NCBI RefSeq assembly: GCF_000003605.2
Contig: NW_003126365.1
Location: forward strand, 1-26,624
Direction: 5' to 3'
DNA length: 26,624 nt
DNA from: Saccoglossus kowalevskii
Taxonomy: Eukaryota > Hemichordata > Enteropneusta > Harrimaniidae
Shown here piece after piece: positions 1 through 26,624 of this stretch (positions are counted from its first letter, which is position 1; each line of letters begins with the position of its first letter). The position numbers and the translations under genes are program-made. The notes beneath the pieces are model-generated. The model worked only from the letters and a program-made list of their open reading frames with translations. It was not told the DNA's origin and did no database searches.

Positions 1-546
1 TCATCAATTTAGCACAAAATGCGACTCTGGTACAAGCAGTGATGAAGAAAAAGCTTAATGGAAACTGAAGAAGGCAGCGAGTCAAAATCGCCTCTTAAAA
101 GGATTTTTAGAAAGAAAAGTTCATCAAGCTCGTCTTCAAAAAGTTCAAAATCTTCTCATTCAAGCTCATCAAGCAGTGACGAGGAGTCAACAGATGATGA
201 TAAGGATTCAAGAAAACCAACAAAAGAAATAGAAACACCCAAAGAACAAGATGTAGCTGATGAAAAGACCAGTGAGACTGTTGAAGATGAGGTTAAACCA
301 GATGAAAAAGCTAGTGACACAATTGAAGATAAGGTTAAACCAGATGATGGTAGTGAGGGTGATGTCTCAGGTAAAATCAGTGACACTGAAGAAGTGAAAC
401 CAGACCTGGAAGAAGATCAGCATATAGATAATGCTGAAGTGGTTGTACCTGAACCTACAGAAACAATTGTTAAAGAACAAACTATTACTCAAACACCAGA
501 AAAAGAAACTGATGCAGGTGATAAAACCACACTAACTGAAGAAGTA
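1..546 (+). repeat. U0, partial type A unit
   Basis: The unit head is truncated by the window edge: the ASPKF region is 5 bases short and begins at TCATCAATTTAGC. Private marks are TGC (Cys) in TKCDSG, DEKASD instead of DDKASD, and IVKEQ instead of IVEEQ. The first two marks are shared only with U38. The tail is TITQ/TLTEE. Confidence 0.85.
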
Positions 547-3500
547 ATTGTTGTTGAAAAGGAAATTATTTCATCTGCATCACCAAAATTTAGCACGAAA
601 AGTGACTCCAGTACAAGCAGTGATGATGAAAAAACAAAGAAAACTGAAGAGGGCAGCGAGTCAAAATCGCCTCTTAAAAGATTTTTCAGAAAAAAAAGTT
701 CATCAAGCTCGTCTTCAAAAAGTTCCAAATCTTCTCATTCCAGCTCATCAAGCAGTGACAAGGAGTCAACAGATGATGATAAGGATTCAAGAAAACCAAC
801 TAAAGAACCAGAAACACCCGAAGAACAAGAAATAGCTGATGAAAAGACTAGTGAGACTGTTGAAGATGAGGTTAAATCAGATGATAACGCCAGTGAGTCA
901 GTTGAATATGAGGTTAAACCAGATGATAAAACCAGTGACACAACTGAAGATACGGTTCAACCAGATGATGGAAGTGAGGGTGATGTCTCAGGTAAAATCA
1001 GTGACACTGAAGAAGTGAAACCAGAACTGGAAGAAGATAAGCCCGGTGACAATGCTGAAGTGGTTGTACCTGAACCTACAGACACAATAGTTGAAGAACA
1101 AATTATCACTGAAGCACCAGACAAGCAAACTGATGCAGGTGATGAAACCACACCAACCGAAAAAGTAATTGATGCAGGTGATAAAACCACACCAACTGAA
1201 GAGTTAATTGTTGTTGAAAAGGAAATTACTTCATCTGCATCACCAAAATTTAGCACAAAAAGCGACTCTGGTACAAGCAGTGATGAAGAAAAAGCAAAGG
1301 AAACTGAAGAAGGCAGCGAGTCAAAATCGCCTCTTAAAAGGATTTTTAGAAAGAAAAGTTCATCAAGCTCGTCTTCAAAAAGTTCAAAATCTTCTCATTC
1401 AAGCTCATCAAGCAGTGACGAGGAGTCAACAGATGATGATAAGGATTCAAGAAAACCAACAAAAGAAATAGAAACACCCAAAGAACAAGATGTAGCTGAT
1501 GAAAAGACCAGTGAGACTGTTGAAGATGAGGTTAAACCAGATGATAAAGCTAGTGACACAATTGAAGATAAGGTTAAACCAGATGATGGTAGTGAGGGTG
1601 ATGTCTCAGGTAAAATCAGTGACACTGAAGAAGTGAAACCAGACCTGGAAGAGATCAGCATATATATAATGCTGAAGTGGTTGTACCTGACCTACAGAAC
1701 AATTGTTGAAGAACAAACTATTACTCAACACCAGAAAAGAAACTGATGCAGGTGATAAACCACACTACTGAGAAGTAATTGTGTGAAAGGAAATTATTTC
1801 ATCTGCATCACCAAAATTAGCACGAAAAGTGACTCCAGTACAAGCAGTGATGATGAAAAAACAAAGAAAACTGAAGAGGGCAGCGAGTCAAAATCGCCTC
1901 TTAAAAGATTTTTCAGAAAAAAAAGTTCATCAAGCTCGTCTTCAAAAAGTTCCAAATCTTCTCATTCCAGCTCATCAAGCAGTGACAAGGAGTCAACAGA
2001 TGATGATAAGGATTCAAGAAAACCAACTAAAGAACCAGAAACACCCGAAGAACAAGAAATAGCTTATGAAAAGACTAGTGAGACTGTTGAAGATGAGGTT
2101 AAATCAGATGATAACGCCAGTGAGTCAGTTGAATATGAGGTTAAACCAGATGATAAAACCAGTGACACAACTGAAGATACGGTTCAACCAGATGATGGAA
2201 GTGAGGGTGATGTCTCAGGTAAAATCAGTGACACTGAAGAAGTGAAACCAGAACTGGAAGAAGATAAGCCCAGTGACAATGCTGAAGTGGTTGTACCTGA
2301 ACCTACAGACACAATAGTTGAAGAACAAATTATCACTGAAGCACCAGACAAGCAAACTGATGCAGGTGATGAAACCTCACCAACCGAAAAAGTAATTGAT
2401 GCAGATGATAAAACCACACCAACTGAAGAATTAATTGTTGTTGAAAAGGAAATTACTTCATCTGCATCACCAAAATTTAGCACAAAAAGTGACTCTGGTA
2501 CAAGCAGTGATGAGGAAAAAGCAAAGGAAACCGAAAAAGGCAGCGAGTCAAAATCGCCTGTTAAAAGGATTTTTCAGAAAAAAAAGTTCATCAAGCTCGT
2601 CTTCAAAAAGTTCCAAATCTTCTCATTCCAGCTCATCAAGCAGTGACAAGGAGTCAACAGATGATGATAAGGATTCAAGAAAACCAACTAAAGAACCAGA
2701 AGCACCCGAAGAACAAGAAGTAGCTGATGAAAAGACTAGTGAGACTGTTGAAGATGAGGTTAAATCAGATGATAACGCCAGTGAGTCAGTTGAATATGAG
2801 GTTAAACCAGATGATAAAGCTAGTGACACAATTGAAGATAAGGTTAAACCAGATGATGGTAGTGAGGGTGATGTCTCAGGTAAAATCAGTGACACTGAAG
2901 AAGTGAAACCAGACCTGGAAGAAGATCAGCATATAGATAATGCTGAAGTGGTTGTACCTGAACCTACAGAAACAATTGTTGAAGAACAAACTATTACTCA
3001 AACACCAGAAAAAGAAACTGATGCAGGTGATAAAACCACACCAACTGAAGAGGTAATTGTTGTTGAAAAGGAAATTATTTCATCTGCATTACCAACATTT
3101 AGCACAAAAAGTGATTCTGGTACAAGCAGTGATGAGGAAAAGGCAAAAGAAAGTGAAGAAGACAGCGAGTCAAAATCGCCTGTTAAAAGGTTTTTCAGAA
3201 AAAAAAAGTTCATCAAGCTCTTCTTCAGAGAGTTCTAAATCTTCTCATTCAAGCTCATCAAGCAGTGACGAGGAGTCAACAGATGATGATAAGGATTCAA
3301 GAAAACCAACTAAAGAACCAGAAACACCCGAAGAACAAGATGTAGCTGATGAGAAGACTAGTGAGACTGTTGAAGATGAGGTTAAATCAGATGATAAAAC
3401 CAGTGACACAACTGAAGATAAGGTTCAACCAGATGATGGAAGTGAGTGTGATGTCTCAGGTAAAATCAGTGACACTGAAGAAGTGAAACCAGAACTGGAA

Positions 3501-6500
3501 GAAGATAAGCCCGGGGACAATGCTCAAGTGGTTGTACCTGAACCTACAGACACAATAGTTGAAGAACAAATTATCACTGAAGCACCAGACAAGCAAACTG
3601 ATGCAGGTGATGAAACCACACCAACCGAAAAAGTAATTGATGCAGGTGATAAAACCACACCAACTGAAGAGTTAATTGTTGTTGAAAAGGAAATTACTTC
3701 ATCTGCATCACCAAAATTTAGCACAAAAAGCGACTCTGGTACAAGCAGTGATGAAGAAAAAGCAAAGGAAACTGAAGAAGGCAGCGAGTCAAAATCGCCT
3801 CTTAAAAGGATTTTTAGAAAGAAAAGTTCATCAAGCTCATCTTCAAAAAGTTCAAAATCTTCTCATTCAAGCTCATCAAGCAGTGACGAGGAGTCAACAG
3901 ATGATGATAAGGATTCAAGAAAACCAACAAAAGAAATAGAAACACCCAAAGAACAAGATGTAGCTGATGAAAAGACCAGTGAGACTGTTGAAGATGAGGT
4001 TAAACCAGATGATAAAGCTAGTGACACAATTGAAGATAAGGTTAAACCAGATGATGGTAGTGAGGGTGATGTCTCAGGTAAAATCAGTGACACTGAAGAA
4101 GTGAAACCAGACCTGGAAGAAGATCAGCATATAGATAATGCTGAAGTGGTTGTACCTGAACCTACAGAAACAATTGTTGAAGAACAAACTATTACTCAAA
4201 CACCAGAAAAAGAAACTGATGCAGGTGATAAAACCACACTAACTGAAGAAGTAATTGTTGTTGAAAAGGAAATTATTTCATCTGCATCACCAACATTTGG
4301 CACGAAAAGTGACTCCAGTACAAGCAGTGATGATGAAAAAACAAAGAAAACTGAAGAGGGCAGCGAGTCAAAATCGCCTGTTAAAAGATTTTTCAGAAAA
4401 AAAAGTTCATCAAGCTCGTCTTCAAAAAGTTCCAAATCTTCTCATTCCAGCTCATCAAGCAGTGACAAGGAGTCAACAGATGATGATAAGGATTCAAGAA
4501 AACCAACTAAAGAACCAGAAACACCCGAAGAACAAGAAATAGCTTATGAAAAGACTAGTGAGACTGTTGAAGATGAGGTTAAATCAGATGATAACGCCAG
4601 TGAGTCAGTTGAATATGAGGTTAAACCAGATGATAAAACCAGTGACACAACTGAAGATACGGTTCAACCAGATGATGGAAGTGAGGGTGATGTCTCAGGT
4701 AAAATCAGTGACACTGAAGAAGTGAAACCAGAACTGGAAGAATATAAGCCCAGTGTTAATGCTGAAGTGGTTGTACCTGAACCTACAGACACAATAGTTG
4801 AAGACAAATTATCACTGAAGCACCAGACAAGCAAACTGATGCAGTGATGAACCACACCAACCGAAAAGTAATTGATGCAGATGATAAACCACACCACTGA
4901 AGAATTAATGTGTGAAAAGGAAATACTTCATCTGCATCACCAAAATTTAGCACAAAAAGTGACTCTGGTACAAGCAGTGATGAGGAAAAAGCAAAGGAAA
5001 CCGAAAAAGGCAGCGAGTCAAAATCGCCTCTTAAAAGGATTTTTAGAAAGAAAAGTTCATCAAGCTCGTCTTCAAAAAGTTCAAAATCTTCTCATTCAAG
5101 CTCATCAAGCAGTGACGAGGAGTTATCAGATGATGATAAGGATTCAAGAAAACCGACAAAAGAAATAGAAACACCCAAAGAACAAGATGTAGCTGATGAA
5201 AAGACCAGTGAGACTGTTGAAGATGAGGTTAAACCAGATGATAAAGCTAGTGACACAATTGAAGATAAGGTTAAACCAGATGATGGTAGTGAGGGTGATG
5301 TCTCAGGTAAAATCAGTGACACTGAAGAAGTGAAACCAGACCTGGAAGAAGATCAGCATATAGATAATGCTGAAGTGGTTGTACCTGAACCTACAGAAAC
5401 AATTGTTGAAGAACAAACTATTACTCAAACACCAGAAAAAGAAACTGATGCAGGTGATAAAACCACACTAACTGAAGAAGTAATTGTTGTTGAAAAGGAA
5501 ATTATTTCATCTGCATCACCAAAATTTAGCACGAAAAGTGACTCCAGTACAAGCAGTGATGAAGAAAAAACAAAGAAAACTGAAGAGGGCAGCGAGTCAA
5601 AATCGCCACTTAAAAGATTTATCAGAAAAAAAAGTTCATCAAGCTCGTCTTCAAAAAGTTCCAAATCTTCTCATTCCAGCTCATCAAGCAGTGACGAGGA
5701 GTCAACAGATGATGATAAGGATTCAAGAAAACCAACTAAAGAACCAGAAACACCCGAAGAACAAGAAAATTCTGATGAAAAGACCGGTGAGACTGTTGAA
5801 GATGAGGTTAAATCAGATGATAACGCCAGTGAGTCAGTTGAATATGAGGTTAAACCAGATGATAAAACCAGTGACACAACTGAAGATAAGGTTCAATCAG
5901 ATGATGGAAGTGAGGGTGATATCTCAGGTAAAATCAGTGACACTGAAGAAGTGAAACCAGAACTGGAAGAAGATAAGCCCGGTGATAATGCTGAAGTCGT
6001 TGAACCTGAACCTACAGACACAATAGTTGAAGAACAAATTAAAACTGAAGCACCAGACAAGCAAACTGATGCAGGTGATGAAACCACACCAACCGAAAAA
6101 GTAATTGATGCAGGTGATAAAACCACACCAACTGAAGAGTTAATTGTTGTTGAAAAGGAAATTACTTCATCTGCATCACCAAAATTTAGCACAAAAAGTG
6201 ACTCTGGTACAAGCAGTGATGAAGAAAAAGCAAAGGAAACTGAAGAAGGCAGCGAGTCAAAATCGCCTCTTAAAAGGATTTTTAGAAAGAAAAGTTCATC
6301 AAGCTCGTCTTCAAAAAGTTCAAAATCTTCTCATTCCAGCTCATCAAGCAGTGACGAGGAGTCAACAGATGATGATAAGGATTCAAGAAAACCAACAAAA
6401 GAAATAGAAACACCCAAAGAACAAGATGTAGCTGATGAAAAGACCAGTGAGACTGTTGAAGATGAGGTTAAACCAGATGATAAAGCTAGTGACACAATTG

Positions 6501-9500
6501 AAGATAAGGTTAAACCAGATGATGGTAGTGAGGGTGATGTCTCAGGTAAAATCAGTGACACTGAAGAAGTGAAACCAGACCTGGAAGAAGATCAGCATAT
6601 AGATAATGCTGAAGTGGTTGTACCTGAACCTACAGAAACAATTGTTGAAGAACAAACTATTACTCAAACACCAGAAAAAGAAACTGATGCAGGTGATAAA
6701 ACCACACTAACTGAAGAAGTAATTGTTGTTGAAAAGGAAATTATTTCATCTGCATCACCAAAATTTAGCACGAAAAGTGACTCCAGTACAAGCAGTGATG
6801 ATGAAAAAACAAAGAAAACTGAAGAGGGCAGCAAGTCAAAATCGCCTCTTAAAAGATTTTTCAGAAAAAAAAGTTCATCAAGCTCGTCTTCAAAAAGTTC
6901 CAAATCTTCTCATTCCAGCTCATCAAGCAGTGACAAGGAGTCAACAGATGGTGATAAGGATTCAAGAAAACCAACTAAAGAACCAGAAACACCCAAAGAA
7001 CAAGAAATAGCTTATGAAAAGACTAGTGAGACTGTTGAAGATGAGGTTAAATCAGATGATAACGCCAGTGAGTCAGTTGAATATGAGGTTAAACCAGATG
7101 ATAAAACCAGTGACACAACTGAAGATACGGTTCAACCAGATGATGGAAGTGAGGGTGATGTCTCAGGTAAAATCAGTGACACTGAAGAAGTGAAACCAGA
7201 ACTGGAAGAATATAAGCCCAGTGTTAATGCTGAAGTGGTTGTACCTGAACCCTACAGACACAATAGTTGAAGAACAAATTATCACTGAAGCACCAGACAA
7301 GCAAACTGATGCAGGTGATGAAACCACACCAACCGAAAAAGTAATTGATGCAGATGATAAAACCACACCAACTGAAGAATTAATTGTTGTTGAAAAGGAA
7401 ATTACTTCATCTGCATCACCAAAATTTAGCACAAAAAGTGACTCTGGTACAAGCAGTGATGAGGAAAAAGCAAAGGAAACCGAAAAAGGCAGCGAGTCAA
7501 AATCGCCTCTTAAAAGGATTTTTAGAAAGAAAAGTTCATCAAGCTCGTCTTCAAAAAGTTCAAAATCTTCTCATTCAAGCTCATCAAGCAGTGACGAGGA
7601 GTTATCAGATGATGATAAGGATTCAAGAAAACCGACAAAAGAAATAGAAACACCCAAAGAACAAGATGTAGCTGATGAAACGACCAGTGAGACTGTTGAA
7701 GATGAGGTTAAACCAGATGATAAAGCTAGTGACACAATTGAAGATAAGGTTAAACCAGATGATGGTAGTGAGGGTGATGTCTCAGGTAAAATCAGTGACA
7801 CTGAAGAAGTGAAACCAGACCTGGAAGAAGATCAGCATATAGATAATGCTGAAGTGGTTGTACCTGAACCTACAGAAACAATTGTTGAAGAACAAATTAT
7901 TACTGAAACACCAGAAAAAGAAACTGATGCAGGTGATAAAACCACACCAACTGAGGAGGTAATTGTTGTTGAAAAGGAAATTATTTCATCTGCATCACCA
8001 ACATTTAGCACAAAAAGTGATTCTGGTACAAGCAGTGATGAGGAAAAGGCAAAAGAAAGTGAAGAAGACAGCGAGTCAAAATCGCCTGTTAAAAGGTTTT
8101 TCAGAAAAAAAAGTTCATCAAGCTCTTCTTCAGAGAGTTCTAAATCTTCTCATTCAAGCTCATCAAGCAGTGACGAGGAGTCAACAGATGATGATAAGGA
8201 TTCAAGAAAACCAACTAAAGAACCAGAAACACCCGAAGAACAAGAAATAGCTGATGAAAAGACTAGTGAGACTGTTGAAGATGAGGTTAAATCAGATGAT
8301 AAAACCAGTGACACAACTGAAGATACGGTTCAACCAGATGATGGAAGTGAGGGTGATGTCTCAGGTAAAATCAGTGACACTGAAGAAGTGAAACCAAAAC
8401 TGGAAGAAGATAAGCCCGGTGACAATGCTGAAGTGGTTGTACCTGAACCTACAGACACAATAGTTGAAGAACAAATTATCACTGAAGCACCAGACAAGCA
8501 AACTGATGCAGGTGATGAAACCACACCAACCGAAAAAGTAATTGATGCAGGTGATAAAACCACACCAACTGAAGAGTTAATTGTTGTTGAAAAGGAAATT
8601 ACTTCATCTGCATCACCAAAATTTAGCACAAAAAGCGACTCTGGTACAAGCAGTGATGAAGAAAAAGCAAAGGAAACTGAAGAAGGCAGCGAGTCAAAAT
8701 CGCCTCTTAAAAGGATTTTTAGAAAGAAAAGTTCATCAAGCTCGTCTTCAAAAAGTTCAAAATCTTCTCATTCAATCTCATCAAGCAGTGACGAGGAGTC
8801 AACAGATGATGATAAGGATTCAAGAAAACCAACAAAAGAAATAGAAACACCCAAAGAACAAGATGTAGCTGATGACAAGACCAGTGAGACTGTTGAAGAT
8901 GAGGTTAAACCAGATGATAAAGCTAGTGACACAATTGAAGATAAGGTTAAACCAGATGATGGTAGTGAGGGTGATGTCTCAGGTAAAATCAGTGACACTG
9001 AAGAAGTGAAACCAGACCTGGAAGAAGATCAGCATATAGATAATGCTGAAGTGGTTGTACCTGAACCTACAGAAACAATTGTTGAAGAACAAACTATTAC
9101 TCAAACACCAGAAAAAGAAACTGATGCAGATGATAAAACCACACTAACTGAAGAAGTAATTGTTGTTGAAAAGGAAATTATTTCATCTGCATCACCAAAA
9201 TTTAGCACGAAAAGTGACTCCAGTACAAGCAGTGATGATGAAAAAACAAAGAAAACTGAAGAGGGCAGCGAGTCAAAATCGCCACTTAAAAGATTTTTCA
9301 GAAAAAAAAGTTCATCAAGCTCGTCTTCAAAAAGTTCCAAATCTTCTCATTCCAGCTCATCAAGCAGTGATAAGGAGTCAACAGATGATGATAAGGATTC
9401 AAGAAAACCAACTAAAGAACCAGAAACACCCGAAGAACAAGAAATAGCTTATGAAAAGACTAGTGAGACTGTTGAAGATGAGGTTAAATCAGATGATAAC

Positions 9501-12500
9501 GCCAGTGAGTCAGTTGAATATGAGGTTAAACCAGATGATAAAACCAGTGACACAACTGAAGATATGGTTCAACCGGATGATGGAAGTGAGGGTGATGTCT
9601 CAGGTAAAATCAGTGACACTGAAGAAGTGAAACCAGAACTGGAAGAATATAAGCCCAGTGTTAATGCTGAAGTGGTTGTACCTGAACCTACAGACACAAT
9701 AGTTGAAGAACAAATTATCACTGAAGCACCAGACAAGCAAACTGATGCAGGTGATGAAACCACACCAACCGAAAAAGTAATTGATGCAGATGATAAAACC
9801 ACACCAACTGAAGAATTAATTGTTGTTGAAAAGGAAATTACTTCATCTGCATCACCAAAATTTAGCACAAAAAGTGACTCTGGTACAAGCAGTGATGAGG
9901 AAAAAGCAAAGGAAACCGAAAAAGGCAGCGAGTCAAAATCGCCTCTTAAAAGGATTTTTAGAAAGAAAAGTTCATCAAGCTCGTCTTCAAAAAGTTCAAA
10001 ATCTTCTCATTCAAGCTCATCAAGCAGTGACGAGGAGTTATCAGATGATGATAAGGATTCAAGAAAACCGACAAAAGAAATAGAAACACCCAAAGAACAA
10101 GATGTAGCTGATGAAAAGACCAGTGAGACTGTTGAAGATGAGGTTAAACCAGATGATAAAGCTAGTGACACAATTGAAGATAAGGTTAAACCAGATGATG
10201 GTAGTGAGGGTGATGTCTCAGGTAAAATCAGTGACACTGAAGAAGTGAAACCAGACCTGGAAGAAGATCAGCATATAGATAATGCTGAAGTGGTTGTACC
10301 TGAACCTACAGAAACAATTGTTGAAGAACAAATTATTACTGAAACACCAGAAAAAGAAACTGATGCAGGTGATAAAACCACACCAACTGAAGAGGTAATT
10401 GTTGTTGAAAAGGAAATTATTTCATCTGCATCACCAACATTTAGCGCAAAAAGTGATTCTGGTACAAGCAGTGATGAGGAAAAGGCAAAAGAAAGTGAAG
10501 AAGACAGCGAGTCAAAATCGCCTGTTAACAGGTTTTTCAGAAAAAAAAGTTCATCAAGCTCTTCTTCAGAGAGTTCTAAATCTTCTCATTCAAGCTCATC
10601 AAGCAGTGACGAGGAGTTATCAGATGATGATAAGGATTCAAGAAAACCGACAAAAGAAATAGAAACACCCAAAGAACAAGATGTAGCTGATGAAAAGACC
10701 AGTGAGACTGTTGAAGATGAGGTTAAACCAGATGATAAAGCTAGTGACACAATTGAAGATAAGGTTAAACCAGATGATGGTAGTGAGGGTGATGTCTCAG
10801 GTAAAATCAGTGACACTGAAGAAGTGAAACCAGACCTGGAAGAAGATCAGCATATAGATAATGCTGAAGTGGTTGTACCTGAACCTACAGAAACAATTGT
10901 TGAAGAACAAACTATTACTCAAACACCAGAAAAAGAAACTGATGCAGGTGATAAAACCACACTAACTGAAGAAGTAATTGTTGTTGAAAAGGAAATTATT
11001 TCATCTGCATCACCAAAATTTAGCACGAAAAGTGACTCCAGTACAAGCAGTGATGAAGAAAAAACAAAGAAAACTGAAGAGGGCAGCGAGTCAAAATCGC
11101 CACTTAAAAGATTTTTCAGAAAAAAAAGTTCATCAAGCTCGTCTTCAAAAAGTTCCAAATCTTCTCATTCCAGCTCATCAAGCAGTGATAAGGAGTCAAC
11201 AGATGATGATAAGGATTCAAGAAAACCAACTAAAGAACCAGAAACACCCGAAGAACAAGAAATAGCTTATGAAAAGACTAGTGATACTGTTGAAGATGAG
11301 GTTAAATCAGATGATAACGCCAGTGAGTCAGTTGAATATGAGGTTAAACCAGATGATAAAACCAGTGACACAACTGAAGATACGGTTCAACCGGATGATG
11401 GAAGTGAGGGTGATGTCTCAGGTAAAATCAGTGACACTGAAGAAGTGAAACCAGAACTGGAAGAATATAAGCCCAGTGTTAATGCTGAAGTGGTTGTACC
11501 TGAACCTACAGACACAATAGTTGAAGAACAAATTATCACTGAAGCACCAGACAAGCAAACTGATGCAGGTGATGAAACCACACCAACCGAAAAAGTAATT
11601 GATGCAGATGATAAAACCAAACCAACTGAAGAATTAATTGTTGTTGAAAAGGAAATTACTTCATCTGCATCACCAAAATTTAGCACAAAAAGTGACTCTG
11701 GTACAAGCAGTGATGAGGAAAAAGCAAAGGAAACCGAAAAAGGCAGCGAGTCAAAATCGCCTCTTAAAAGGATTTTTAGAAAGAAAAGTTCATCAAGCTC
11801 GTCTTCAAAAAGTTCAAAATCTTCTCATTCAAGCTCATCAAGCAGTGACGAGGAGTTATCAGATGATGATAAAGGATTCAAGAAAACCGACAAAGAAATA
11901 GAAACACCCAAAGAACAAGATGTAGCTGATGAAAAGACCAGTGAGACTGTTGAAGATGAGGTTAAACCCAGATGATAAAGCTAGTGACACAATTGAAGAT
12001 AAGGTTAAACCAGATGATGGTAGTGAGGGTGATGTCTCAGGTAAAGTCAGTGACACTGAAGAAGTGAAACCAGACCTGGAAGAAGATCAGCATATAGATA
12101 ATGCTGAAGTGGTTGTACCTGAACCTACAGAAACAATTGTTGAAGAACAAACTATTACTCAAACACTAGAAAAAGAAACTGATGCAGGTGATAAAACCAC
12201 ACTAACTGAAGAAGTAATTGTTGTTGAAAAGGAAATTATTTCATCTGCATCACCAAAGTTTAGCACGAAAAGTGACTCCAGTACAAGCAGTGATGATGAA
12301 AAAACAAAGAAAACTGAAGAGGGCAGCAAGTCAAAATCGCCTCTTAAAAGATTTTTCAGAAAAAAAAGTTCATCAAGCTCGTCTTCAAAAAGTTCAAAAT
12401 CTTCTCATTCCAGCTCATCAAGCAGTGACAAGGAGTCAACAGATGGTGATAAGGATTCAAGAAAACCAACTAAAGAACCAGAAACACCCGAAGAACAAGA

Positions 12501-15500
12501 AATAGCTTATGAAAAGACTAGTGAGACTGTTGAAGATGAGGTTAAATCAGATGATAACGCCAGTGAGTCAGTTGAATATGAGGTTAAACCAGATGATAAA
12601 ACCAGTGACACAACTGAAGATACGGTTCAACCAGATGATGGAAGTGAGGGTGATGTCTCAGGTAAAATCAGTGACACTGAAGAAGTGAAACCAGAACTGG
12701 AAGAATATAAGCCCAGTGTTAATGCTGAAGTGGTTGTACCTGAACCTACAGACACAATAGTTGAAGAACAAATTATCACTGAAGCACCAGACAAGCAAAC
12801 TGATGCAGGTGATGAAACCACACCAACCGAAAAAGTAATTGATGCAGATGATAAAACCACACCAACTGAAGAATTAATTGTTGTTGAAAAGGAAATTACT
12901 TCATCTGCATCACCAAAATTTAGCACAAAAAGTGACTCTGGTACAAGCAGTGATGAGGAAAAAGCAAAGGAAACCGAAAAAGGCAGCGAGTCAAAATCGC
13001 CTCTTAAAACGACTTTTAGAAAGAAAAGTTCATCAAGCTCGTCTTCAAAAAGTTCAAAATCTTCTCATTCAAGCTCATCAAGCAGTGAAGAGGAGTTATC
13101 AGATGATGATAAGGATTCAAGAAAACCGACAAAAGAAATAGAAACACCCAAAGAACAAGATGTAGCTGATGAAAAGACCAGTGAGACTGTTGAAGATGAG
13201 GTTAAACCAGATGATAAAGCTAGTGACACAATTGAAGATAAGGTTAAACCAGATGATGGTAGTGAGGGTTATGTCTCAGGTAAAATCAGTGACACTGAAG
13301 AAGTGAAACCAGACCGGGAAGAAGATCAGCATATAGATAATGCTGAAGTGGTTGTACCTGAACCTACAGAAACAATTGTTGAAGAACAAATTATTACTGA
13401 AACACCAGAAAAAGAAACTGATGCAGGTGATAAAACCACACCAACTGAAGAGGTAATTGTTGTTGAAAAGAAAATTATTTCATCTGCATCACCAACATTT
13501 AGCACAAAAAGTGATTCTGGTACAAGCAGTGATGAGGAAAAGGCAATGGAAACTGAAGAAGGCAGCGAGTCAAAATCGCCTCTTAAAAGGATTTTTAGAA
13601 AGAAAAGTTCATCAAGCTCGTCTTCAAAAAGTTCAAAATCTTCTCATTCAAGCTCATCAAGCAGTGACGAGGAGTCAACAGATGATGATAAGGATTCAAG
13701 AAAACCAACTAAAGAACCAGAAACACCCGAAGAACAAGAAATAGCTGATGAAAAGACTAGTGAGACTGTTGAAGATGAGGTTAAATCAGATGATAAAACC
13801 AGTGACACAACTGAAGATAAGGTTCAACCAGATGATGGAAGTGAGGGTGATGTCTCAGGTAAAATCAGTGACACTGAAGAAGTGAAACCAGAACTGGAAG
13901 AAGATAAGCACGGTGACAATGCTGAAGTGGTCGTACCTGAACCTACAGACACAATAGTTGAAGAACAAATTATCACTGAAGCACCAGACAAGCAAACTGA
14001 TGCAGGTGATGAAACCACACCAACCGAAAAAGTAATTGATGCAGGTGATAAAACCACACCAACTGAAGAGTTAATTGTTGTTGAAAAGGAAATTACTTCA
14101 TCTGCATCACCAAAATTTAGCACAAAAAGTGACTCTGGTACAAGCAGTGATGAGGAAAAAGCAAAGGAAACTGAAGAAGGCAGCGAGTCAAAATCGCCTC
14201 TTAAAAGGATTTTTAGAAAGAAAAGTTCATCAAGCTCGTCTTCAAAAAGTTCAAAATCTTCTCATTCAAGCTCATCAAGCAGTGACGAGGAGTCAACAGA
14301 TGATGATAAGGATTCAAGAAAACCAACAAAAGAAATAGAAACACCCAAAGAACAAGATGTAGCTGATGAAAAGACCAGTAAGACTGTTGAAGATGAGGTT
14401 AAACCAGATGATAAAGCTAGTGACACAATTGAAGATAAGGTTAAACCAGATGATGGTAGTGAGGGTGATGTCTCAGGTAAAATCAGTGACACTGAAGAAG
14501 TGAAACCAGAACTGGAAGAAGATAAGCCCGGTGACAATGCTGAAGTGGTTGTACCTGAACCTACAGACACAATAGTTGAAGAACAAATTATCACTGAAGC
14601 ACCAGACAAGCAAACTGATGCAGGTGATGAAACCACACCAACCGAAAAAGTAATTGATGCAGGTGATAAAACCACACCAACTGAAGAGTTAATTGTTGTT
14701 GAAAAGGAAATTACTTCATCTGCATCACCAAAATTTAGCACAAAAAGCGACTCTGGTACAAGCAGTGATGAAGAAAAAGCAAAGGAAACTGAAGAAGGCA
14801 GCGAGTCAAAATCGCCTCTTAAAAGGATTTTTAGAAAGAAAAGTTCATCAAGCTCGTCTTCAAAAAGTTCAAAATCTTCTCATTCAAGCTCATCAAGCAG
14901 TGACGAGGAGTCAACAGATGATGATAAGGATTCAAGAAAACCAACAAAAGAAATAGAAACACCCAAAGAACAAGATGTAGCTGATGAAAAGACCAGTAAG
15001 ACTGTTGAAGATGAGGTTAAACCAGATGATAAAGCTAGTGACACAATTGAAGATAAGGTTAAACCAGATGATGGTAGTGAGGGTGATGTCTCAGGTAAAA
15101 TCAGTGACACTGAAGAAGTGAAACCAGACCTGGAAGAAGATCAGCATATAGATAATGCTGAAGTGGTTGTACCTGAACCTACAGAAACAATTGTTGAAGA
15201 ACAAATTATTACTGAAACACCAGAAAAAGAAACTGATGCAGGTGATAAAACCACACCAACTGAAGAGGTAATTGTTGTTGAAAAGAAAATTGTTTCATCT
15301 GCATCACCAACATTTAGCACAAAAAGTGATTCTGGTACAAGCAGTGATGAGGAAAAGGCAAAGGAAACTGAAGAAGGCAGCGAGTCAAAATCGCCTCTTA
15401 AAAGGATTTTTAGAAAGAAAAGTTCATCAAGCTCGTCTTCAAAAAGTTCCAAATCTTCTCATTCCAGCTCATCAAGCAGTGATAAGGAGTCAACAGATGA

Positions 15501-18500
15501 TGATAAGGATTCAAGAAAACCAACTAAAGAACCAGAAACACCCGAAGAACAAGATATAGCTTATGAAAAGACTAGTGAGACTGTTGAAGATGAGGTTAAA
15601 TCAGATGATAATGCCAGTGAGTCAGTTGAATATGAGGTTAAACCAGATGATAAAACCAGTGACACAACTGAAGATACGGTTCAACCGGATGATGGAAGTG
15701 AGGGTGATGTCTCAGGTAAAATCAGTGACACTGAAGAAGTGAAACCAGAACTGGAAGAATATAAGCCCAGTGTTAATGCTGAAGTGGTTGTACCTGAACC
15801 TACAGACACAATAGTTGAAGAACAAATTATCACTGAAGCACCAGACAAGCAAACTGATGCAGGTGATGAAACCACACCAACCGAAAAAGTAATTGATGCA
15901 GATGATAAAACCACACCAACTGAAGAATTAATTGTTGTTGAAAAGGAAATTACTTCATCTGCATCACCAAAATTTAGCACAAAAAGTGACTCTGGTACAA
16001 GCAGTGATGAGGAAAAAGCAAAGGAAACCGAAAAAGGCAGCGAGTCAAAATCGCCTCTTAAAAGGATTTTTAGAAAGAAAAGTTCATCAAGCTCGTCTTC
16101 AAAATGTTCAAAATCTTCTCATTCAAGCTCATCAAGCAGTGACGAGGAGTTATCAGATGATGATAAGGATTCAAGAAAACCAACAAAAGAAATAGAAACA
16201 CCCAAAGAACAAGATGTAGCTGATGAAAAGACCAGTGAGACTGTTGAAGATGAGGTTAAACCAGATGATAAAGCTAGTGACACAATTGAAGATAAGGTTA
16301 AACCAGATGATGGTAGTGAGGGTGATGTCTCAGGTAAAATCAGTGACACTGAAGAAGTGAAACCAGACCTGGAAGAAGATCAGCATATAGATAATGCTGA
16401 AGTGGTTGTACCTGAACCTACAGAAACAATTGTTGAAGAACAAATTATTACTGAAACACCAGAAAAAGAAACTGATGCAGGTGATAAAACCACACCAACT
16501 GAAGAGGTAATTGTTGTTGAAAAGGAAATTATTTCATCTGCATCACCAACATTTAGCGCAAAAAGTGATTCTGGTACAAGCAGTGATGAGGAAAAGGCAA
16601 AAGAAAGTGAAGAAGACAGCGAGTCAAAATCGCCTGTTAAAAGGTTTTTCAGAAAAAAAAGTTCATCAAGCTCTTCTTCAGAGAGTTCTAAATCTTCTCA
16701 TTCAAGCTCATCAAGCAGTGACGAGGAGTCAACAGATGATGATAAGGATTCAAGAAAACCAACTAAAGAACCAGAAACACCCGAAGAACAAGATGTAGCT
16801 GATGAGAAGACTAGTGAGACTGTTGAAGATGAGGTTAAATCAGATGATAAAACCAGTGACACAACTGAAGATAAGGTTCAACCAGATGATGGAAGTGAGT
16901 GTGATGTCTCAGGTAAAATCAGTGACACTGAAGAAGTGAAACCAGAACTGGAAGAAGATAAGCCCGGGGACAATGCTCAAGTGGTTGTACCTGAACCTAC
17001 AGACACAATAGTTGAAGAACAAATTATCACTGAAGCACCAGACAAGCAACTGATGCAGGTGATGAAACCACACCAACCGAAAAAGTAATTGATGCAGGTG
17101 ATAAAACCAAACCCATTGAAGAATTAATTGTTGTGAAAAGGAAATTACTTCATCTGCATCACCAAAATTTAGCACAAAAAGTGACTCTGGTACAAGCAGT
17201 GATGAGGAAAAAGCAAAGGAAACCGAAAAAGGCAGCGAGTCAAAATCGCCTCTTAAAAGGATTTTTAGAAAGAAAAGTTCATCAAGCTCGTCTTCAAAAA
17301 GTTCAAAATCTTCTCATTCAAGCTCATCAAGCAGTGACGAGGAGTTATCAGATGATGATAAGGATTCAAGAAAACCGACAAAAGAAATAGAAACACCCAA
17401 AGAACAAGATGTAGCTGATGAAAAGACCAGTGAGACTGTTGAAGATGAGGTTAAACCAGATGATAAAGCAAGTGACACAATTGAAGATAAGGTTAAACCA
17501 GATGATGGTAGTGAGGGTGATGTCTCAGGTAAAATCAGTGACACTGAAGAAGTGAAACCAGACCTGGAAGAAGATCAGCATATAGATAATGCTGAAGTGG
17601 TTGTACCTGAACCTACAGAAACAATTGTTGAAGAACAAATTATTACTGAAACACCAGAAAAAGAAACTGATGCAGGTGATAAAACCACACCAACTGAAGA
17701 GGTAATTGTTGTTGAAAAGGAAATTATTTCATCTGCATCACCAACATTTAGCGCAAAAAGTGATTCTGGTACAAGCAGTGATGAGGAAAAGGCAAAAGAA
17801 AGTGAAGAAGACAGCGAGTCAAAATCGCCTGTTAACAGGTTTTTCAGAAAAAAAAGTTCATCAAGCTCTTCTTCAGAGAGTTCTAAATCTTCTCATTCAA
17901 GCTCATCAAGCAGTGACGAGGAGTCAACAGATGATGATAAGGATTCAAGAAAACCAACTAAAGAACCAGAAACACCCGAAGAACAAGATGTAGCTGATGA
18001 GAAGACTAGTGAGACTGTTGAAGATGAGGTTAAATCAGATGATAAAACCAGTGACACAACTGAAGATAAGGTTCAACCAGATGATGGAAGTGAGGGTGAT
18101 GTCTCAGGTAAAATCAGTGACACTGAAGAAGTGAAACCAGAACTGGAAGAAAATAAGCCCAGTGTTAATGCTGAAGTGGTTGTACCTGAACCTACAGACA
18201 CAATAGTTGAAGAACAAACTATCACTGAAGCACCAGACAAGCAAACTGATGCAGGTGATGAAACCACACCAACCGAAAAAGTAATTGATGCAGATGATAA
18301 AACCACACCAACTGAAGAATTAATTGTTGTTGAAAAGGAAATTACTTCATCTGCGTCACCAAAATTTAGCACAAAAAGTGACTCTGGTACAAGCAGTGAT
18401 GAGGAAAAAGCAAAGGAAACCGAAAAAGGCAGCGAGTCAAAATCGCCTCTTAAAAGGATTTTTAGAAAGAAAAGTTCATCAAGCTCGTCTTCAAAAAGTT

Positions 18501-21500
18501 CAAAATCTTCTCATTCAAGCTCATCAAGCAGTGACGAGGAGTTATCAGATGATGATAAGGATTCAAGAAAACCGACAAAAGAAATAGAAACACCCAAAGA
18601 ACAAGATGTAGCTGATGAAAAGACCAGTGAGACTGTTGAAGATGAGGTTAAACCAGATGATAAAGCTAGTGACACAATTGAAGATAAGGTTAAACCAGAT
18701 GATGGTAGTGAGGGTGATGTCTCAGGTAAAATCAGTGACACTGAAGAAGTGAAACCAGACCTGGAAGAAGATCAGCATATAGATAATGCTGAAGTGGTTG
18801 TACCTGAACCTACAGAAACAATTGTTGAAGAACAAATTATTACTGAAACACCAGAAAAAGAAACTGATGCAGGTGATAAAACCACACCAACTGAAGAGGT
18901 AATTGTTGTTGAAAAGGAAATTATTTCATCTGCATCACCAACATTTAGCGCAAAAAGTGATTCTGGTACAAGCAGTGATGAGGAAAAGGCAAAAGAAAGT
19001 GAAGAAGACAGCGAGTCAAAATCGCCTGTTAAAAGGTTTTTCAGAAAAAAAAGTTCATCAAGCTCTTCTTCAGAGAGTTCTAAATCTTCTCATTCAAGCT
19101 CATCAAGCAGTGACGAGGAGTCAACAGATGATGATAAGGATTCAAGAAAACCAACTAAAGAACCAGAAACACCCGAAGAACAAGATGTAGCTGATGAGAA
19201 GACTAGTGAGACTGTTGAAGATGAGGTTAAATCAGATGATAACGCCAGTGAGTCAGTTGAATATGAGGTTAAACCAGATGATAAAACCAGTGACACAACT
19301 GAAGATAAGGTTCAATCAGATGATGGAAGTGAGGGTGATATCTCAGGTAAAATCAGTGACACTGAAGAAGTGAAACCAGAACTGGAAGAAGATAAGCCCG
19401 GTGATAATGCTGAAGTGGTTGTACCTGAACCTACAGACACAATAGTTGAAGAACAAATTAAAACTGAAGCACCAGACAAGCAAACTGATGCAGGTGATGA
19501 AACCACACCAACCGAAAAAGTAATTGATGCAGGTGATAAAACCACACCAACTGAAGAGTTAATTGTTGTTGAAAAGGAAATTACTTCATCTGCATCACCA
19601 AAATTTAGCACAAAAAGTGACTCTGGTACAAGCAGTGATGAAGAAAAAGCAAAGGAAACTGAAGAAGGCAGCGAGTCAAAATCGCCTCTTAAAAGGATTT
19701 TTAGAAAGAAAAGTTCATCAAGCTCGTCTTCAAAAAGGTCAAAATCTTTTCATTCAAGCTCATCAAGCAGTGACGAGGAGTCAACAGATGATGATAAGGA
19801 TTCAAGAAAACCAACAAAAGAAATAGAAACACCCAAAGAACAAGATGTAGCTGATGAAAAGACCAGTGAGACTGTTGAAGATGAGGTTAAACCAGATGAT
19901 AAAGCTAGTGACACAATTGAAGATAAGGTTAAACCAGATGATGGTAGTGAGGGTGATGTCTCAGGTAAAATCAGTGACACTGAAGAAGTGAAACCAGAAC
20001 TGGAAGAAGATCAGCATATAGATAATGCTGAAGTGGTTGTACCTGAACCTACAGAAACAATTGTTGAAGAACAAACTATTACTCAAACACCAGAAAAAGA
20101 AACTGATGCAGGTGATAAAACCACACTAACTGAAGAAGTAATTGTTGTTGAAAAGGAAATTATTTCATCTGCATCACCAAAATTTAGCAAGAAAAGTGAC
20201 TCCAGTACAAGCAGTGATGATGAAAAAACAAAGAAAACTGAAGAGGGCAGCAAGTCAAAATCGCCTCTTAAAAGGATTTTTAGAAAGAAAAGTTCATCAA
20301 GCTCGTCTTCAAAAAGTTCAAAATCTTCTCATTCCAGCTCATCAAGCAGTGACAAGGAGTCAACAGATGATAAGGATTCAAGAAAACCAACTAAAGAACC
20401 AGAAGCACCCGAAGAACAAGAAGTAGCTGATGAAAAGACTAGTGAGACTGTTGAAGATGAGGTTAAATCAGATGATAACGCCAGTGAGTCAGTTGAATAT
20501 GAGGTTAAACCAGATGATAAAACCAGTGACACAACTGAAGATACGGTTCAACCAGATGATGGAAGTGAGGGTGATGTCTCAGGTAAAATCAGTGACACTG
20601 AAGAAGTGAAACCAGAACTGGAAGAATATAAGCCCAGTGTTAATGCTGAAGTGGTTGTACCTGAACCTACAGAAACAATTGTTGAAGAACAAATTATTAC
20701 TGAAACACCAGAAAAAGAAACTGATGCAGGTGATAAAACCACACCAACTGAAGAGGTAATTGTTGTTGAAAAGGAAATTATTTCATCTGCATCACCAACA
20801 TTTAGCACAAAAAGTGATTCTGGTACAAGCAGTGATGAGGAAAAGGCAAAAGAAAGTGAAGAAGACAGCGAGTCAAAATCGCCTGTTAAAAGGTTTTTCA
20901 GAAAAAAAAGTTCATCAAGCTCTTCTTCAGAGAGTTCTAAATCTTCTCATTCAAGCTCATCAAGCAGTGACGAGGAGTCAACAGATGATGATAAGGATTC
21001 AAGAAAACCAACTAAAGAACCAGAAACACCCGAAGAACAAGATGTAGCTGATGAGAAGACTAGTGAGACTGTTGAAGATGAGGTTAAATCAGATGATAAA
21101 ACCAGTGACACAACTGAAGATAAGGTTCAACCAGATGATGGAAGTGAGGGTGATGTCTCAGGTAAAATCAGTGACACTGAAGAAGTGAAACCAGAACTGG
21201 AAGAAGATAAGTCCGGGGACAATGCTGAAGTGGTTGTACCTGAACCTACAGACACAATAGTTGAAGAACAAATTATCACTGAAGCACCAGACAAGCAAAC
21301 TGATGCAGGTGATGAAACCACACCAACCGAAAAAGTAATTGATGCAGGTGATAAAACCACACCAACTGAAGAGTTAATTGTTGTTGAAAAGGAAATTACT
21401 TCATCTGCATCACCAAAATTTAGCACAAAAAGCGACTCTGGTACAAGCAGTGATGAAGAAAAAGCAAAGGAAACTGAAGAAGGCAGCGAGTCAAAATCGC

Positions 21501-24500
21501 CTCTTAAAAGGATTTTTAGAAAGAAAAGTTCATCAAGCTCATCTTCAAAAAGTTCAAAATCTTTTCATTCAAGCTCATCAAGCAGTGATGAGGAGTCAAC
21601 AGATGATGATAAGGATTCAAGAAAACCAACAAAAGAAATAGAAACACCCAAAGAACAAGATGTAGCTGATGAAAAGACCAGTGAGACTGTTGAAGATGAG
21701 GTTAAACCAGATGATAAAGCTAGTGACACAATTGAAGATAAGGTTAAACCAGATGATGGTAGTGAGGGTGATGTCTCAGGTAAAATCAGTGACACTGAAG
21801 AAGTGAAACCAGAACTGGAAGAATATAAGCCCAGTGTTAATGCTGAAGTGGTTGTACCTGAACCTACAGACACAATAGTTGAAGAACAAATTATCACTGA
21901 AGCACCAGACAAGCAAACTGATGCAGGTGATGAAACCACACCAACCGAAAAAGTAATTGATGCAGATGATAAAACCACACCAACTGAAGAATTAATTGTT
22001 GTTGAAAAGGAAATTACTTCATCTGCATCACCAAAATTTAGCACAAAAAGTGACTCTGGTACAAGCAGTGATGAGGAAAAAGCAAAGGAAACCGAAAAAG
22101 GCAGCGAGTCAAAATCGCCTCTTAAAACGACTTTTAGAAAGAAAAGTTCATCAAGCTCGTCTTCAAAAAGTTCAAAATCTTCTCATTCAAGCTCATCAAG
22201 CAGTGAAGAGGAGTTATCAGATGATGATAAGGATTCAAGAAAACCGACAAAAGAAATAGAAACACCCAAAGAACAAGATGTAGCTGATGAAAAGACCAGT
22301 GAGACTGTTGAAGATGAGGTTAAACCAGATGATAAAGCTAGTGACACAATTGAAGATAAGGTTAAACCAGATGATGGTAGTGAGGGTGATGTCTCAGGTA
22401 AACTCAGTGACACTGAAGAAGTGAAACCAGACCTGGAAGAAGATCAGCATATAGATAATGCTGAAGTGGTTGTACCTGAACCTACAGAAACAATTGTTGA
22501 AGAACAAATTATTACTGAAACACCAGAAAAAGTAATTGATGCAGGTGATACAACCACACCAACTGAGGAGGTAATTGTTGTTGAAAAGGAAATTATTTCA
22601 TCTGCATCACCAACATTTAGCACAAAAAGTGATTCTGGTACAAGCAGTGATGAGGAAAAGGCAAAAGAAAGTGAAGAAGACAGCGAGTCAAAATCGCCTG
22701 TTAAAAGGTTTTTCAGAAAAAAAAGTTCATCAAGCTCTTCTTCAGAGAGTTCTAAATCTTCTCATTCAAGCTCATCAAGCAGTGACGAGGAGTCAACAGA
22801 TGATGATAAGGATTCAAGAAAACCAACTAAAGAACCAGAAACACCCGAAGAACAAGAAATAGCTGATGAAAAGACTAGTGAGACTGTTGAAGATGAGGTT
22901 AAATCAGATGATAAAACCAGTGACACAACTGAAGATAAGGTTCAACCAGATGATGGAAGTGAGGGTGATGTCTCAGGTAAAATCAGTGACACTGAAGAAG
23001 TGAAACCAGAACTGGAAGAAGATAAGCACGGTGACAATGCTGAAGTGGTCGTACCTGAACCTACAGACACAATAGTTGAAGAACAAATTATCACTGAAGC
23101 ACCAGACAAGCAAACTGATGCAGGTGATGAAACCACACCAACCGAAAAAGTAATTGATGCAGGTGATAAAACCACACCAACTGAAGAGTTAATTGTTGTT
23201 GAAAAGGAAATTACTTCATCTGCATCACCAAAATTTAGCACAAAATGCGACTCTGGTACAAGCAGTGATGAAGAAAAAGCAAAGGAAACTGAAGAAGGCA
23301 GCGAGTCAAAATCGCCTCTTAAAAGGATTTTTAGAAAGAAAAGTTCATCAAGCTCGTCTTCAAAAAGTTCAAAATCTTCTCATTCAAGCTCATCAAGCAG
23401 TGACGAGGAGTCAACAGATGATGATAAGGATTCAAGAAAACCAACAAAAGAAATAGAAACACCCAAAGAACAAGATGTAGCTGATGAAAAGACCAGTGAG
23501 ACTGTTGAAGATGAGGTTAAACCAGATGAAAAAGCTAGTGACACAATTGAAGATAAAGTTAAACCAGATGATGGTAGTGAGGGTGATGTCTCAGGTAAAA
23601 TCAGTGACACTGAAGAAGTGAAACCAGACCTGGAAGAAGATCAGCATATAGATAATGCTGAAGTGGTTGTACCTGAACCTACAGAAACAATTGTTGAAGA
23701 ACAAACTATTACTCAAACACCAGAAAAAGAAACTGATGCAGGTGATAAAACCATACTAACTGAAGAAGTAATTGTTTTTGAAAAGGAAATTATTTCATCT
23801 GCATCACCAACATTTGGCACGAAAAGTGACTCCAGTACAAGCAGTGATGATGAAAAAACAAAGAAAACTGAAGAGGGCAGCGAGTCAAAATCGCCTGTTA
23901 AAAGATTTTTCAGAAAAAAAAGTTCATCAAGCTCGTCTTCAAAAAGTTCCAAATCTTCTCATTCAAGCTCATCAAGCAGTGACAAGGAGTCAACAGATGA
24001 TGATGAGGATTCAAGAAAACCAACTAAAGAACCAGAAACACCCGAAGAACAAGAAATAGCTGATGAAAAGACTAGTGAGACTGTTGAAGATGAGGTTAAA
24101 TCAGATGATAACGCCAGTGAGTCAGTTGAATATGAGGTTAAACCAGATGATAAAACCAGTGACACAACTGAAGATAAGGTTCAATCAGATGATGGAAGTG
24201 AGGGTGATATCTCAGGTAAAATCAGTGACACTGAAGAAGTGAAACCAGAACTGGAAGAAGATAAGCCCGGTGATAATGCTGAAGTGGTTGTACCTGAACC
24301 TACAGACACAATAGTTGAAGAACAAATTAAAACTGAAGCACCAGACAAGCAAACTGATGCAGGTGATGAAACCACACCAACCGAAAAAGTAATTGATGCA
24401 GGTGATAAAACCACACCAACTGAAGAGTTAATTGTTGTTGAAAAGGAAATTACTTCATCTGCATCACCAAAATTTAGCACAAAAAGTGACTCTGGTACAA

Positions 24501-26624: not shown

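Follow-up and report, generated by a model that had tools for sequence, protein, structure and literature searches.

A 44-unit tandem array from the acorn worm Saccoglossus kowalevskii, most likely the inner part of a giant single-exon repeat protein

Contig C1910 of Saccoglossus kowalevskii (positions 1 to 26,624) makes up the entire window analysed here, and 44 tandem units, all in the same orientation, fill it from end to end. We conclude that the window most likely encodes the interior of a single giant protein, predicted to be acidic and disordered and to comprise some 9,200 residues or more. The reading frame common to the units, the pattern of variation among them and the end of a like array on a second contig, where the frame closes at a stop codon, are set out below.

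Layout and reading frame of the array

Between the 44 unit anchors we found no spacer, no non-repeat DNA and no intron anywhere in the 26,624-base window. The units measure 579, 618–621 or 660 bp, every type being a multiple of three, and fall into types A (193 residues; 20 of the 44, the last one truncated at the window end), B (220 residues; 11 units), C (206 residues; 10 units) and X (206–207 residues; 3 units). Length differences between the types amount to complete codons: 14 residues, 13 residues and, in one unit, 1 residue. The two larger steps are internal duplications of a 14-residue (42 bp) and a 13-residue (39 bp) segment, the former present in three tandem copies in B units and the latter reading DAGDxTTPTExVI. 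The first-pass annotation had described 44 consecutive units in one orientation without spacer, whole-codon length variation and open stretches of 4.7, 5.1 and 9.5 kb; the anchors and unit lengths bear out the first two claims, and the open stretches (Table 1) measure 4.8, 5.2 and 9.5 kb.

A units alternate mostly with B or C units. Adjacent units share on average 0.828 nucleotide identity (lag 1) and second neighbours 0.918 (lag 2), so homogenisation seems to have proceeded mainly in two-unit blocks. C and X units look like exchange products of A and B. Unit pairs 5–6 (2544–3784) and 42–43 (25120–26358), 37 units apart, are near identical, with 5 weighted differences each, and no other pair of two-unit blocks matched at the cut-off applied; their likeness could reflect long-range exchange or an effect of assembly. 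PMC11175523 describes the earlier S. kowalevskii genome as short-read-based and fragmented, and if the present assembly is that one, near-identical units may have been miscounted or placed in the wrong order.

Table 1. Features of the array on contig C1910 (the window) and of the array end on contig C3687
Feature	Position	Strand	Remarks
Partial unit at contig start	1..77	+	Ragged; several small indels relative to other units, by eye
Array of 44 units (A/B/C/X), predicted interior of one giant coding exon	78..26624	+	
Example type-A unit (unit 29), 193 aa	17236..17814	+	KSPLKRIFRKK node, Ser-rich/acidic tract, acidic E/V/K/P/T tail
Example type-B unit (unit 32), 220 aa	19012..19671	+	Carries the 14-aa and 13-aa internal duplications
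12 one-base deletions, unit 3	1652..1817	+	Each within a homopolymer, net -12; probably uncorrected sequence
10 one-base deletions, unit 8	4804..4924	+	All in homopolymers; likely uncorrected sequence
9 single indels	2575, 3199, 7250, 11871, 11892, 11967, 17048, 17134, 26572		
Longest in-frame stretch	17135..26571	+	~3,145 codons; 15 complete units (29–43)
Second longest in-frame stretch	11968..17047	+	Stop-free frame 11926–17085, 1,720 codons
Third longest in-frame stretch	7251..11870	+	Stop-free frame 7194–11972, 1,593 codons
Array 3' end	C3687 84054–83084	minus	One B-like unit, then a decayed last unit, then ...SKRRKSSSSSTSSSYSELD
Stop codon closing the array frame	C3687 83083–83081	minus	

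As assembled, the frame is interrupted by 31 frame-changing one-base indels, identified by aligning units to their close sister units; their positions shift by a few bases between two alignments, the ragged first ~60 bases are left out of the 31, and the other gaps in the recount are cut-end effects or due to the partner unit. Because 30 of these indels lengthen or shorten a homopolymer by a single base (the exception is at 2575) and 22 are packed into two clusters, in units 3 and 8, most of them are probably sequence errors. Only 2 stops occur in 8,763 complete unit-frame codons, both within the two deletion clusters.

Three other kinds of feature were rejected for this DNA. The common frame of the 44 units holds only 2 Met, so the units cannot each begin at an ATG as separate short genes; antisense genes were rejected on a longest minus-strand stop-free frame of 205 codons; and an RNA feature was rejected on the absence of any Rfam match at gathering scores and of any tRNA.

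Variation among the units carries further information about the frame. None of the 128 single-step codon variants in the window makes a stop (3.9% expected, P = 0.006), and 33 of the 88 variants shared between units are silent, compared with ~25% expected (P = 0.006), while private variants show no such excess (9 of 40 silent); these counts cover codon variants with a single change.

The 3' end of a like array and the size of the protein

Using unit sequences in a protein-level search of the worm's own genome (572,110,611 bases in 4,830 contigs; E ≤ 0.01), we obtained at least 49 unit matches, all on C1910 or on C3687 (255,635 bp), with no third unit-bearing contig among them. On C3687 the unit frame runs to a coding end with a stop codon (Table 1), an end that we tie to the C1910 array by inference. 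The first-pass annotation had proposed looking in flanking sequence for folded N- and C-terminal domains; the C-terminal 323 residues on C3687 match no Pfam family at E ≤ 1. KRRK lies near the predicted C-terminus.

The two units at this end differ greatly in divergence. The B-like penultimate unit shares 77–80% amino acid identity with 8 window units, and its dN/dS of 0.59–0.93 (8 comparisons) suggests that constraint on the exact unit sequence is loose. The decayed last unit retains 33–38% amino acid identity to the same number of window units in a gapped alignment, with dS of 0.95–1.57 (~1.2) and dN/dS of 0.41–0.75, and it contains no stop over 145 codons and leads in frame to the stop codon. 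In a simulation of neutral decay, which started from 8 window units and applied random substitution to a nucleotide distance of 0.46 with half transitions, 145 codons stayed open in 0.5% of copies (P = 0.005), with a mean of 5.2 stops. The open last unit is the best single argument against a satellite or a long-dead gene, and since a freely decaying satellite would rarely remain open in this way, a giant coding interior is most likely.

The same data bear on the possibility that the array is a dead gene or a non-coding satellite derived from a coding exon, with an open frame inherited from recent amplification. Such an origin would accommodate the 31 frame-changing indels of the assembly and the neutral look of the private variants, and the openness of 44 near-identical copies is not independent. 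The indels, however, follow a pattern of error (one-base homopolymer changes in all but one case, most of them in two short stretches), substitution has produced no stop, shared variants are enriched for silent changes, and even the old last unit is still open to its stop codon. We regard a dead or non-coding array as improbable.

Directly upstream of 84054, C3687 carries a run of 61,325 N (84055–145379). Given the like units and the lack of a third unit contig, C1910 most likely belongs in this gap, and the gap and the orphan contig are most likely parts of one gene. We found no unit on C3687 145,380–255,000, a region with several further N runs where one tblastn match of E 5.5 was dropped, and the N-terminus is for this reason presumably inside the gap. 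Window and C3687 tail together amount to about 9,200 codons. The earlier proposal of a single repeat protein of at least about 8,800 residues is supported, one long repeat protein being backed by the in-frame end on C3687 and by the decay simulation. As assembled it is not one unbroken open reading frame, and the size of 8,800 or more holds if the 31 indels are errors of sequencing and if the assembly has the units in their true number and order.

Should the number of N stand for a measured distance, the gene could reach about double these ~9,200 codons. As a long shot, the gap may approximate the true array length; the gene would then encode a single unbroken polypeptide of nearly 20,000 residues, disordered almost throughout, with some 100 basic CDK-type nodes at even spacing. 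Such a protein would rank with the longest disordered proteins known from animals and would be a lineage-specific brush, responsive to phosphorylation and tunable through copy number. Assemblies readily fragment, collapse or overlook exons of this kind, and giant proteins can thereby go unseen.

Several further features were observed on C3687. An open reading frame at 75119–76096 (minus; 311 aa), ~7 kb downstream of the array stop and on the same strand, starts MGGCMAKPKKAKNG and is Ser/acid-rich; it has no Pfam match at E ≤ 1, and its N-terminus may be doubly acylated (G2, C4). Two similar coiled-coil stretches, KMKYE.EVIP.L.S.LQQ..VE...KD.RIGELL, lie at 74869–75132 and 72659–73160 (both minus), so the gene neighbouring the array seems to be locally duplicated; the second copy is cut by an N run (57108–72658) and has only weak Pfam matches (E 0.02 or worse). 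Beyond the gap and on the other strand, exons at 147946–170657 (plus) resemble, by eye, an axonemal dynein heavy chain, the one exon scanned having no Pfam support, and 195918–197367 (plus) holds reverse-transcriptase-like open reading frames of a LINE-type element, again by eye. CpG observed/expected is 0.29 in the array versus 0.62 in the flanking contig, and TpG is 1.67; these values are consistent with gene-body methylation, with codon and repeat composition also contributing.

The mitochondrial contig of this genome, C4830 (17,037 bases), reads from 6001 to 16363 as nd5, cob, tRNA-Pro (minus), nd6 (minus), tRNA-Phe, an interval expected to hold the rRNAs, tRNA-Leu, nd2, tRNA-Leu, nd1, cox1 (minus), tRNA-Gln, tRNA-Ala, cox2 and atp8; cox1 was identified with Pfam and the remaining protein genes by eye. 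The only AAA codon of cox1 falls on a conserved lysine, and the gene has no AGG. These features agree with PMC3121625, in which S. kowalevskii departs from Balanoglossus by an inverted COX1 and a transposed ND1 or ND2, reads AAA as Lys and has no AGG shown, and with PMC2697986, where nd5 adjoins cob in both hemichordates, as it does in Xenoturbella and birds.

Unit composition, relatives and proposed function

The 3,168 codons that stay open up to 26,623, a few of them out of frame at both ends, encode 580 Ser (18%), 529 Glu, 378 Lys, 376 Asp and 316 Thr (10%), with 95 Gly (3%), 50 Arg (1.6%), 24 His, 3 Cys, 1 Met and no Trp. The majority unit is 43% charged, with a net charge of -0.15 per residue, and its mean hydropathy of 0.355 falls on the disordered side of the Uversky boundary of 0.469. 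On this composition the product is predicted to be intrinsically disordered and acidic.

Each unit follows one order: a basic node, then a Ser-rich/acidic tract of the SSSSSSSKSSKSSHSSSSSSDEE type, then ~150 residues of acidic E/D/K/T/V/P spacer. Among 21 sampled 15-residue segments of the majority unit, the two that cover the node had a net charge per residue of +0.33; three others lay between 0 and +0.07, and all remaining ones were negative. The node SKSP[LV]KR[IF]FRKK is exact in 37 of the 44 units; S-P-x-[KR] is present in 42 (mean 0.95 sites per unit), as is R-x-x-R, units 22 and 37 reading KTTFRKK in place of the latter. Going by motifs, we take the S-P-x-K of the node to be a CDK-type site and the Ser-rich/acidic tract to be CK2-like. 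The serine run mixes TCA, TCG, TCT, AGC and AGT codons, with many positions invariant in all 44 units, and is thus not a simple codon-slippage tract.

Searches for relatives agree with the earlier remark that the repeat fits no nameable family, within the Pfam, NCBIfam, PDB, phage, viral and prokaryote sets that we covered. Pfam gave no family above cut-off for units or tail; SR-25 (PF10500) matched below cut-off (28.3 bits versus 40; E 1.6e-6) over the node and serine tract, query residues 465–540 being of biased composition, and did not match two fragments that were also scanned. NCBIfam held no relative of the unit, nor did the phage sequences; pattern matches in viral contigs (28) and prokaryote genome contigs (185) yielded no confirmed relative, and a bacterial, phage or viral origin was rejected on these results. 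PDB returned no match for two units at E ≤ 10, and a tail match to moesin/ezrin/radixin homolog 2 (E 0.13) was taken as chance. A literature search by peptide strings, unit length and general description showed no paper on this protein among the titles listed; a record of it may exist in animal proteomes, beyond these libraries.

We tentatively favour, at a little less than even confidence, a reading in which this interior of a giant single acorn-worm exon encodes a disordered acidic chain of ~9,200 or more residues that serves inside the cell as a phosphorylation-tuned spacer or scaffold. Along the chain, a basic node open to phosphorylation would recur once in ~200 residues and would there engage an acidic partner, be it a membrane lipid, a filament or nucleic acid; phosphorylation of the serines flanking a node would switch partner binding; and unequal exchange would determine how many units there are. 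Phosphorylation, predicted purely from motifs, partner binding and cellular location are all our own inferences, the intracellular placement being drawn only from the basic node, the almost complete lack of Cys and the KRRK close to the C-terminus.

The composition could also suit a secreted product of the same gene, namely an acidic protein rich in phosphoserine that would belong to the mucus, adhesive or matrix of the worm skin. Acorn worms are rich in mucus, and the array is repetitive, strongly acidic and high in Ser and Thr. With almost no Cys, too little Gly to be silk-like and no Pfam domain above cut-off, and with a KR..FRKK node in each unit and KRRK near the C-terminus that look more intracellular, we judge secretion unlikely. 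The R-x-x-R within the node (KR[IF]FR) raises a related idea, that a furin-like protease cleaves a precursor once per unit into ~200-residue peptides. Tandem precursors cut in this way are known, and R..R recurs in nearly every unit; nevertheless, units 22 and 37 are without the site, the scheme requires a secretory signal and none was seen, and no folded domain was recognised in the unit, leaving cleavage very improbable.

Alternation of basic node and SSSSSSSKSSKSSHSSSSSSDEE-type tract, together with the weak SR-25 match (a nuclear family associated with splicing), invites comparison with a nuclear or nucleolar scaffold like Nopp140 or treacle, whose CK2-phosphorylated Ser/acidic tracts between basic nodes would gather nucleolar factors. 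That match, though, is below cut-off and spans a region of biased composition, the tail is without a Pfam family, and we know of no Nopp140 or treacle counterpart of the ~150-residue E/V/K/T spacer. A nucleolar role is accordingly quite unlikely in our estimate, and the intracellular spacer or scaffold remains the account we would put first. Hemichordates are used in work on deuterostome origins, and the array provides a natural setting in which to test how a disordered protein grows by unequal exchange and yet retains its frame and a conserved node in each unit.

Comparison with known giant repeat proteins

AHNAK/desmoyokin is encoded by one huge exon of tandem repeats of ~128 residues each and has an N-terminal PDZ domain. 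The array shares the single huge tandem-repeat exon, but its units are 193–220 residues long and differ from AHNAK repeats in sequence and composition. Profilaggrin and hornerin likewise have a single exon of large, almost identical units that vary through unequal exchange, and are Gly/Ser/His/Arg-rich; the array has the same architecture, whereas its product is acidic and poor in Gly and Arg. In Nopp140 and treacle, basic segments alternate with Ser-rich acidic tracts, an arrangement that these proteins and SR-25 share with the array. The array differs in its long E/V/K/T spacer, and its 323-residue tail does not match the conserved C-terminal domain of Nopp140/SRP40, a model of which Pfam presumably includes. 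Neurofilament-H tails and giant ankyrin exons encode disordered charged chains with KSP motifs, as does the array; KSP motifs recur every few residues in neurofilament-H, in contrast to one KSP node per ~200 residues here, and neither the array units nor the tail matched a rod or ankyrin domain.

A satellite, finally, would lie outside protein constraint and decay freely, and the array departs from this in its open decayed last unit and in the silent excess of its shared variants, an excess that private variants lack. Its many units share one common frame with neither intron nor spacer, as in the giant-exon genes, though with the one-base indels of the assembly. The reading as one giant repeat protein is well supported, the 3' end on C3687 being added here, and the array gene would belong to the known kind of giant tandem-repeat proteins in a single exon.
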